Assembly (NCBI RefSeq): GCF_024227435.1
Contig: NZ_CP100446.1
Location: 496,001-560,000, forward strand
Source: Natrinema caseinilyticum
GTDB taxonomy: Archaea; Halobacteriota; Halobacteria; Halobacteriales; Natrialbaceae
Length of the DNA: 64,000 bases
Direction of reading: 5' to 3'
Both the position numbers and the translations under genes were made by a program. Below, piece by piece: positions 29,873-31,411 of this stretch (position 1 is the first letter of the stretch; every line of letters starts with the position of its first letter). The notes beneath the pieces were generated by a model. The model did no database searches. It worked only from the letters and a program-made list of their open reading frames with translations, and was not told the origin of the DNA.

Positions 29873-30421
29873 ATGCCCACGCGCTATTCGATCGGGGAGT
29901 ACCTGCAGAACCTCTCTGCTGCGGTCTCGTATCCGTTCGAGACGTGGCGGGGCACGATCGGCCTGCTACTCGTGACCCTCACCACGTACGTCCTGTTGAT
30001 ACTGAGCGCGATGCCGACGTTTACGCTGCAGATGCTCGGCGACGGACTCCACTGGTTTACGTACGTTCTCGTCGCGCTCACGGAGACGGTGTACCGATCC
30101 GACGGGTGGACGGGCCTCGCGATTGTCGTTCTCTATGCCTCGCTTTCCGGCGTCGCGGTCGTAAACGCCGTCGCGACGCTCCGGGTCGGCGCCGGCTCGA
30201 GTCTGACGGATCTGTCAGGTGTGGTGCCCGGTCTCGTCGCGTCGGGTTGTGCGAGCTGTGGGGCCGGGCTCCTCGGCTTCCTCGGGTTGGCCGGAGGGGT
30301 GGCCGTGCTCCCGTACGACGGCTCGCTGCTCCGCGTCGGCGGTCTCGCCCTGTTGCTGTTCTTTCTCGGGCGGACGGGCCATCCCGAGCAGTGTGCGTTC
30401 CCGACGGAGGGCTCGGAGTGA
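29873..30421 (+). CDS. Polytopic membrane protein with CASC motif (unknown family)
   Basis: A 182-aa protein with about four hydrophobic helices (roughly 28-50, 62-75, 83-103 and 118-165). In the third-to-fourth region it carries SGCASCGAGLLGFLGLAGG, with C126 and C129 at the membrane surface and a further Cys at 174. It forms an operon with the next gene, whose GTG start overlaps its TGA stop. The palindrome ends 42 nt upstream of the ATG at 29873. Cys pairs in membrane helices next to a DsbA-like protein and a thioredoxin suggest electron, thiol or metal transfer. I do not recognise a named family. Confidence 0.8.
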   Translation: MPTRYSIGEYLQNLSAAVSYPFETWRGTIGLLLVTLTTYVLLILSAMPTFTLQMLGDGLHWFTYVLVALTETVYRSDGWTGLAIVVLYASLSGVAVVNAVATLRVGAGSSLTDLSGVVPGLVASGCASCGAGLLGFLGLAGGVAVLPYDGSLLRVGGLALLLFFLGRTGHPEQCAFPTEGSE

Positions 30422-30891
30422 CCGCCCACGACTTCCTCGCATCGATCCGCTCGGACCGGCGAGCGATCGCACGGGGTGCGGTCGCCGGACTCGGCGTCTT
30501 TCTGCTGTTCGGGCTCGTCACCGGACTCGTTCCGAACCCGCTCTACGTCCGAATGGTTCCCCGGAAGCCGGTCGATTACCTGCTGCTCGCACTGACCGCG
30601 CTGCTCTCGGGAACCTACGTCGCACAGCGGACCGCGACCGAATCGCGACTCGATTCCGAGAGCGATTCCTCGAGCGACGACGATCGGTGGGCGATCGGCG
30701 GGTTGATCGGCGGGTTCCTCGCGGTCGGCTGTCCGATCTGTAACGGCTTCCTGCTCGCTCTGTTCAGTTCGTCCGCGCTCATGACCTACTTCGACCCGCT
30801 CCGCCCGGCGCTCGGTGCGCTCTCCGTCGCCCTCCTGGCGGGGTTGATCTGGGCCCGCCACAGGCGAACGTGTCCGACCTGCTCGACGTGA
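30418..30891 (+). CDS. Polytopic membrane protein with GCPICN motif (unknown family)
   Basis: A 157-aa protein with a GTG start overlapping the upstream stop (GTGA), so it is probably translationally coupled. Hydrophobic segments lie at about 18-40, 53-70, 93-122 and 128-146. The motif AVGCPICNGFLLALF has C105 and C108 within a helix, and the C terminus ends CPTCST with a second Cys pair at 152/155. A charged Ser/Asp loop separates the halves. It resembles small Cys-pair membrane proteins that occur beside thioredoxin-like genes in other prokaryotes (from memory). It probably works together with the preceding CASC protein. Confidence 0.8.
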   Translation: MTAHDFLASIRSDRRAIARGAVAGLGVFLLFGLVTGLVPNPLYVRMVPRKPVDYLLLALTALLSGTYVAQRTATESRLDSESDSSSDDDRWAIGGLIGGFLAVGCPICNGFLLALFSSSALMTYFDPLRPALGALSVALLAGLIWARHRRTCPTCST

Positions 30892-30988
30892 CGGGTCTTC
30901 CGGCCGACATCGGCTCGAATCAGCCCGTTGGCGTTCTGAACCGTCCCAGGGCGGCGTCGGAAACGAGACGAAGATCGATCGGCAACCA

Positions 30989-30997
30989 GTATTGTAT
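30989..30997 (-). promoter_or_regulatory. ACAATA-type motif upstream of thioredoxin gene
   Basis: GTATTGTAT on the plus strand (ATACAATAC in reverse), about 20 nt upstream of the TATA-like TCAAATACT of the gene starting at 31043. It is one of a set of similar sites in the sulfur region. Confidence 0.45.
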
Positions 30998-31042
30998 AGT
31001 GTTTGCAAAACAGTCAAATACTCTCGGGACGTACTACCGGTG

Positions 31043-31411
31043 ATGACAGGAACGGCACACTCGGAAACGTCCGACGACGGTGCGGCGCGGAAACCCGTTC
31101 AGCTGGACGCGGTGGGCGAGTACGAGGATCTGCTCGCCGAGCGGGACCTCGTCTTGCTCGAGTTCGTCACGTCCGGCTGCGGGATCTGCGCGTCGATGGA
31201 GCCGGTACTCGGTGCCGTCGCTCGCAGCGCGCCCGGCGCGGTAGCGACTGTAAACGCTGGTCTCGTCCCCGATCTCGCGGCGGAATTCGAGATTCGAAGC
31301 GTCCCGACGCTCGTCGTGTTACGAGACGGCGACGAAGTGGCCCGCCTCGACGACGGCTTCGAGAGCGCCGAGACGATCGTCGATCTCCTCGAGACGCACG
31401 CCCCGCAGTAA
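31043..31411 (+). CDS. Thioredoxin-family protein (CGIC active site)
   Basis: A 122-aa thioredoxin fold. The active site is C46-G-I-C49 in LLEFVTSGCGICASMEPVL, and the cis-Pro loop is IRSVPTLVVLRDG. There is no signal peptide, so it is cytoplasmic. The CGIC sequence differs from the classic WCGPC, suggesting a specialised redox partner. Start at ATG 31043, with TCAAATACT about 25 nt upstream (leaderless). It lies just past the Cys-pair membrane proteins with its own promoter, which carries the ACAATA-type motif rather than the 23-bp palindrome. Confidence 0.88.
   Translation: MTGTAHSETSDDGAARKPVQLDAVGEYEDLLAERDLVLLEFVTSGCGICASMEPVLGAVARSAPGAVATVNAGLVPDLAAEFEIRSVPTLVVLRDGDEVARLDDGFESAETIVDLLETHAPQ

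Follow-up and report, generated by a model that had tools for sequence, protein, structure and literature searches.

Results

Organization of the locus

The window, that is, the whole 64,000-nucleotide stretch of DNA analyzed here, is part of a 4.77-Mb haloarchaeal genome. It contains two small overlapping genes, termed P1 and P2, together with genes for a DsbA-like protein, a thioredoxin and a winged-helix (HTH) regulator, and three copies of a palindrome (Table 1). Every feature named in a first-pass annotation of this DNA was recovered: the GTGA overlap of P1 and P2, CASC (C126/C129) in P1, GCPICN (C105/C108) and CPTC in P2, a CGIC thioredoxin (C46-G-I-C49) 3' of the pair, and a DsbA-like protein close by under exact copies of the same palindrome. 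That annotation had overlooked C174 of P1, the third operator at HTH-DUF7521 and the fact that P1 and P2 are related.

The thioredoxin scored 48.7 bits against PF00085 (cut-off 23.5), and its active site reads CGIC, not WCGPC. The DsbA-like protein exceeded the cut-offs of both Thioredoxin_4 (78.2 bits, E 1.1e-21) and DSBA (45.4 bits); against the Rcas_1661 family lipoprotein model NF041057 it scored 102 bits, below the cut-off of 190.

Table 1. Coordinates of the locus features within the window.
Feature	Position	Strand	Remarks
DsbA-like exported thiol-disulfide oxidoreductase, CPFC, Tat-type RR N-terminus	26893..27621	-	PF13462 and PF01323 above cut-off
Operator palindrome ATTTGCTGGGTCAGCAAAT	27670..27688	.	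directly 5' of DsbA-like start
Polysaccharide-deacetylase-like gene, divergent from P1, facultative member	27829..29754	-	weak PF01522, E 0.016
Operator palindrome ATTTGCTGAGTGAGCAAAT	29811..29829	.	deacetylase/P1 divergent promoter
P1, 182 aa, predicted 4-TM membrane protein	29873..30421	+	ATG 29873, stop 30419-30421
P1 CASC codons (C126/C129)	30248..30259	+	mid predicted TM3, invariant
P1 tail Cys codon (C174), predicted cytoplasmic	30392..30394	+	invariant in P1 sets A1 and A4
P2, 157 aa, predicted 4-TM membrane protein, GTG start	30418..30891	+	start overlaps P1 stop
P2 CPIC codons (C105/C108)	30730..30741	+	mid predicted TM3, invariant
P2 tail CPTC codons (C152/C155)	30871..30882	+	predicted cytoplasmic
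Thioredoxin, cytoplasmic, CGIC site	31043..31411	+	PF00085; frequent neighbor
Carbamoyltransferase, start faces third operator	31473..33194	-	Carbam_trans N and C
Operator palindrome ATTTGCTGAACCAGCAAAT	33255..33273	.	carbamoyltransferase/HTH divergent promoter
Winged-helix regulator, HTH_20/HVO_A0261_N-like, candidate regulator of the three operators	33257..33670	+	
DUF7521 small membrane protein, overlaps regulator stop	33670..33933	+	PF24365, E 7e-18

Three genome-unique operators

The palindrome, ATTTGCT-N5-AGCAAAT, stands before the DsbA-like gene, in the deacetylase/P1 promoter and in the carbamoyltransferase/HTH-DUF7521 promoter. These three exact copies are the only ones in the genome, no further copy exists at ≤1 mismatch, and the expectation in shuffled windows is 0.02 at ≤2 mismatches. 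These operators link the HTH gene to P1-P2 and to the DsbA-like gene. Counted across relatives, copies of this element stand ahead of P1 in 30 cases, of the DsbA-like gene in 28, of the HTH gene in 9 and of the carbamoyltransferase gene in 7.

The HTH gene lies within 5 kb of P1 in 40 of 69 P1 loci, and the DUF7521 gene in 42 of them. This proximity and its own operator suggest that the HTH protein probably regulates the unit via the three near-identical operators; the true start of its gene probably lies downstream of the operator. Since its start faces the third operator, the carbamoyltransferase gene possibly belongs to the regulon. Across Halobacteria, the HTH-DUF7521 pair (33257-33933) is also a repeated neighbor of P1 or P2, and at some loci SCO1-TlpA-CcdA genes follow it.

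Distribution and Cys conservation of P1 and P2

Scans of P1, P2 and their member sets against Pfam and NCBIfam gave no family above cut-off, in line with the first reading, which had placed neither protein in a named family; scattered weak matches (DUF2162, TctB, DUF5676, DUF6069) were set aside. A PDB sequence search with P1 and P2 returned nothing, and our literature search found no paper naming either protein.

P2 relatives were found in 66 of the 242 Halobacteria searched, and an unconstrained P1 profile gave matches in 78, forming one strong group and one distant group with CAAC and a tail Cys. A scan of 84,980 species yielded 69 P1 loci, all haloarchaeal, with exactly three Cys in 61; all read CASC, which is partly so by construction because CASC was part of one of the two patterns used in the scan, a restriction absent from the profile search. 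P1 is rare outside Halobacteria, with one clear match among the remaining sampled members of the phylum; this protein carries CPIC and a tail C-x4-C and has, by our reading, a DsrE-like neighbor. The more divergent CAAC subfamily (L188-L201), encoded behind DsbA-like lipoproteins in Halobacteria, belongs to no Pfam family either.

A lack of conservation of the Cys pairs had been named beforehand as one refuting outcome. In alignments with members as low as 41-46% identity to the window protein, C126, C129 and C174 of P1 and C105, C108 and N109 of P2 are invariant. Moreover, the three P1 Cys are among just nine invariant columns across both P1 subfamilies (24-65% identity to P1). Cys conservation in P1 and P2 is far above chance, and the invariant residues include no His and no Met.

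Predicted topology

Hydropathy analysis indicated four segments in P1 and P2, and the K+R content favored an N-in/C-in arrangement in all 122 sequences. In this topology, predicted from composition, the hairpin would have the orientation generally described for MerT. Besides the TM3 CxxC, 121 of the 122 sequences carry Cys on the predicted inner side, in the tail or, in P2 proteins without the tail pair, in loop 2; the predicted outer loops hold one Cys in all 122 rows together, and one in the 82 P1 and CAAC rows. A second Cys site on the inside of the membrane, as predicted here, supports the relay proposed at first reading. Solo P2 forms (L051, L052, L055, L071) lack the tail CxxC and have a Cys pair in loop 2, predicted to face the same side.

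AF2 models of P1 and P2 reached a mean pLDDT of 66-72, middling around the CxxC, and gave no informative match to a solved fold. Foldseek/VIA searches with these middling-confidence models returned low-scoring helical matches alone; CcdA, VKOR and DsbB were unlisted, which we do not count against them.

P1 and P2 are related and share a MerT-like hairpin

In hhalign comparisons, with bacterial and haloarchaeal P2 profiles kept as separate sets, P1 matched the CAAC group (P 1.8e-14, 180 columns) and bacterial P2 matched P1 (P 8.7e-7, 149 columns), with their CxxC motifs in register and their tail Cys likewise. MerT was matched by bacterial P2 (P 1.2e-9, 75-76 columns) and by haloarchaeal P2 (P 4.8e-6); the direct comparison of P1 with MerT was not significant (P 0.14), so that the two are connected through P2 alone. 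Unrelated membrane families mostly gave P 0.015-0.7, and the exception among the other sets was MerT against a set of small CC-motif proteins (P 5.9e-5). HMMER searches agreed: P1 profile A4 found P2 in two genomes (3.4e-5 and 4.9e-4), and NCBIfam MerT matched the Pseudonocardia P2 (E 9.5e-5). Judged by these profile comparisons and HMMER searches, P1 and P2 form a single, unnamed superfamily whose C-terminal hairpin is MerT-like.

P2 and MerT (PF02411) share the order of a TM with a Cys site, a short outer turn with EP/DP, a further TM and a basic inner segment with Cys. However, MerT has a vicinal CC in the first of three TM, whereas P1 and P2 have a CxxC in the predicted TM3 of four, with two extra N-terminal TM and no third TM past the Cys segment. 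Membership in MerT was rejected on the CC motif, the TM number and the curated cut-offs: the best P2 match to PF02411 had E 0.0053, below the cut-off, and P1 gave none. MerT exceeded its cut-off in none of the 242 Halobacteria, and a mer review reports that merT and merP are nearly absent from Archaea (PMC3466566). At a permissive threshold, the MerT profile gave weak matches (L213-L222) in roughly half of the genomes of Halobacteria, all below the cut-off with a best E of 5e-7, and the strongest of them may be further unannotated MerT-like hairpins.

CcdA homology was likewise rejected: comparisons of P1 and P2 with CcdA from haloarchaea and from bacteria gave P 0.02-0.54, whereas the positive control, haloarchaeal against bacterial CcdA, gave 1.4e-7. 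Neither VKOR (PF07884) nor DsbB (PF02600) was among the families shown in Pfam scans of P1, P2 and sets A1, A2 and A3. The motif set differs from those of DsbD/CcdA and VKOR, as originally noted.

P1 is paired with a DsbA-like gene

Of the 69 P1 loci, 67 have a DsbA-like gene no more than 2.5 kb from P1 and 58 have it within 300 bp; in 26, the two genes overlap by 4 nt on the same strand. When the 69 P1 were clustered at 70% identity, each of the 18 clusters had a DsbA-linked member. The link survives rearrangement, since the two genes are divergent in Natrialbaceae and elsewhere mostly co-directional as DsbA-P1(-P2). A deacetylase-like gene stands between them in the window and near P1 in 9 of the 69 loci; many relatives have the two genes adjacent and divergently oriented. 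The CAAC subfamily has a DsbA-like lipoprotein gene directly upstream in nearly all of 14 fetched loci (at L197 the gene caller gave no clear answer). The mirror-tree correlation, uncorrected for the species tree, was 0.93. Long ORFs at L113, L140, L126 and L110, considered as DsbA-P1 fusions, were dismissed as high-GC read-through.

The DsbA-like partners have CPFC, CPIC or CPYC active sites in 57 of 57 cases and a cis-Pro motif in 56 of 57. Where no DsbA-like gene is present at the locus (L036, L041), P1 has decayed, with CASC changed to RASR in a shortened ORF or a 75-aa remnant without the motif, and P2 is intact; P2 is thus separable from DsbA-P1. Haloarchaeal P2 also occurs solo or with SCO1-TlpA-CcdA sets. 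It is P1 rather than P2 that forms the obligate partner of the DsbA-like protein.

The first-pass annotation had proposed a survey for constant pairing with DsbA-like and thioredoxin genes. Such pairing holds for P1 and the DsbA-like gene, and the thioredoxin is a frequent neighbor that has no operator of its own. A thioredoxin was recorded at 28 surveyed loci including the window, with CGIC in 26, and opposite-strand genes often separate it from P2. The thioredoxin encoded at 31043-31411 is likely a member of the system. Small CC-motif membrane proteins recur by these loci (L032:2934-3200, L062:8471-8770) and lie within 5 kb of P1 in 16 of 69; it is one set of these that matched MerT above.

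Bacterial P2 neighborhoods

P2 relatives are encoded on plasmids of Actinomycetota, Alphaproteobacteria and Thermomicrobium. Gene orders include Trx-CcdA-P2 (Arthrobacter), DsbA-CcdA-P2 (Pseudonocardia), DsbD-DsbA-P2 (Azospirillum), P2-Trx-CcdA (Streptomyces), CcdA-Trx divergent from P2 (Rhodococcus) and P2-TlpA (Mycolicibacterium). Such a thiol-redox gene was found at about half of the 16 annotated bacterial P2 loci examined, a non-random sample. The sulfur genes DsrE, rhodanese and TauE recur at bacterial P2 loci, and several have genes of copper type, namely for metal-sensitive regulators, P-type ATPases and a copper-binding protein.

The Arthrobacter plasmid CYT module, described as possibly sulfur-oxidizing, resembles these loci in uniting regulator, CcdA, DsbA-family and DsrE genes (PMC6305408); in the part of that report available to us, however, the CPxCN protein is not described as a family of its own and no haloarchaeal link is drawn.

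Discussion

Taken together, our data argue, with a probability of about 0.55, for a transmembrane thiol-electron relay in which P1 and P2 would carry electrons reductively from cytoplasmic thiols to the exported DsbA-like protein. A thiol relay across the membrane had been proposed at first reading. The conserved Cys pairs, the P1-DsbA pairing, the bacterial P2 loci with DsbA, CcdA or DsbD and the predicted inner Cys bear out its elements; its chemistry and direction are what we infer from the computed pairing, Cys conservation, homologies and operators.

In the proposed mechanism, P1 and P2 would be sister four-TM proteins that transfer thiol reducing equivalents from one side of the membrane to the other. 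The TM3 CxxC in the MerT-like hairpin would meet the exported DsbA-like protein, and the second Cys site (C174 in P1, CPTC in P2) would be cytoplasmic and reachable by thioredoxin or another dithiol. P1 may act as the dedicated partner of the DsbA-like protein, and P2 as an accessory relay that could also serve other exported Trx-fold proteins (SCO/TlpA/CcdA and DsbA-CcdA sets). The likeliest route would be reductive, from a cytoplasmic thiol to the tail Cys, the TM3 CxxC and finally the CPFC of the DsbA-like protein, and the unit is probably switched by the neighboring HTH protein via the three operators.

The relay is favored because the partners carry CxxC (57/57) and cis-Pro (56/57) and because CcdA and DsbD are the company of bacterial P2. 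The P1-DsbA pairing, the decay of P1 without a DsbA-like gene, the inner Cys in 121/122 and the shared operators also count for it. CcdA and the DsbD transmembrane domain have the same job as that envisaged for P1 and P2, from cytoplasmic thiol to exported Trx-fold protein, and P1 occupies in haloarchaea the slot between DsbA and P2 that CcdA holds in the Pseudonocardia and Arthrobacter operons. However, CcdA sequences have a single Cys in each of two helices, P1 and P2 have one CxxC in one helix, and profile similarity is absent. Against the relay count the nearest named relative, MerT, which is a metal carrier and not a redox protein; the lack of a second disulfide pair in P1, which has just three Cys; the copper-type genes at several bacterial P2 neighborhoods; the middling AF2 models around the CxxC; and the mirror-tree value of 0.93, uncorrected for the species tree.

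Metal transfer, the main alternative from the outset, has a real evolutionary basis, because the superfamily's C-terminal hairpin is related to MerT. Here the DsbA-like protein would play MerP's role and hand a soft metal (Cu(I), Hg(II), Ag(I)) to the TM3 CxxC and on to the cytoplasmic Cys. The homology of the P2 hairpin to MerT, which extends to the NCBIfam match in Pseudonocardia, is consistent with this, as are the shared order of CC/CxxC, outer EP/DP turn, TM and inner Cys, the copper-type genes near several bacterial P2 and the SCO genes beside some haloarchaeal loci. However, the partner is of DsbA type with CPFC and cis-Pro rather than of the MerP/HMA fold, and no mer genes were seen in the window. 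P1 lacks significant similarity to MerT, curated MerT cut-offs are unreached, and neither His nor Met is invariant. The haloarchaeal metal-gene neighbors are not conserved either: the operator is absent from all metal genes in the window, including the upstream ZIP transporter and halocyanin genes, which accompany P1 in 1 of 69 loci. We regard metal transfer as unlikely.

Slightly less probable is a sulfane-sulfur (persulfide) relay, in which the Cys sites would serve a TusA/DsrE/rhodanese network by handing on sulfur or by reducing persulfides outside the cytoplasm. The window holds a sulfane-sulfur island (39447-48308), sulfur genes lie within 8 kb of P1 in 36 of 69 loci and also near bacterial P2, YeeE handles thiosulfate via membrane cysteines (PMC11073785), and the Arthrobacter plasmid CcdA-DsbA-DsrE module has been linked to sulfur oxidation (PMC6305408). 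However, such genes are within 4 kb of P1 in just 21 of 69 loci, none was seen around the CAAC subfamily loci examined, and no sulfur gene has the operator.

A DsbB/VKOR-like oxidase, with P1 re-oxidizing the DsbA-like protein and passing electrons to quinone, would suit a small multi-TM protein with four TM, one CxxC and a near-constant DsbA-like partner in a group where VKOR occurs in just 41 of the 242 Halobacteria searched, but is the least probable alternative and a very unlikely one, given that P1 has no outer-loop Cys pair in the predicted topology, no VKOR or DsbB model match and a conserved inner Cys that an oxidase leaves unexplained, and that P1 genomes, this one included, often also have VKOR. 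Mutual exclusion of P1 and VKOR was not seen; since they often co-occur, they do not replace each other.

Returning to the thiol-electron relay, a broader reading, to which we would give less than even odds, is that P1 and P2 may represent an additional kind of transmembrane thiol-electron conduit that is related to neither DsbD/CcdA nor DsbB/VKOR, rests on a MerT-type Cys hairpin and serves archaeal (P1) and bacterial (P2) DsbA-type proteins. MerT may then be a branch of an older Cys-relay superfamily for redox and metal traffic. Tying Dsb-type systems to the MerT hairpin would bring thiol redox and soft-metal transport together. How haloarchaea maintain the redox state of exported thiol enzymes is unsettled in the literature we found. 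The conserved DsbA-P1 pair with its genome-unique operator forms a small, closed and testable module, and offers a starting point for an unnamed family of Actinomycetota, Alphaproteobacteria, Thermomicrobium and haloarchaea.

The sulfane-sulfur island itself comprises split YeeE, rhodanese-MBL, TusA, DsrE-2, SQR-like and CoA-disulfide-reductase-like genes. An ORF at 45974-46216 occupies the TusA-like slot of relatives (L062, L067), which read DARGAACPGPL; it reads DARWIERPGPL, lacks the Cys of that motif, has no Pfam match, and is probably a decayed TusA.
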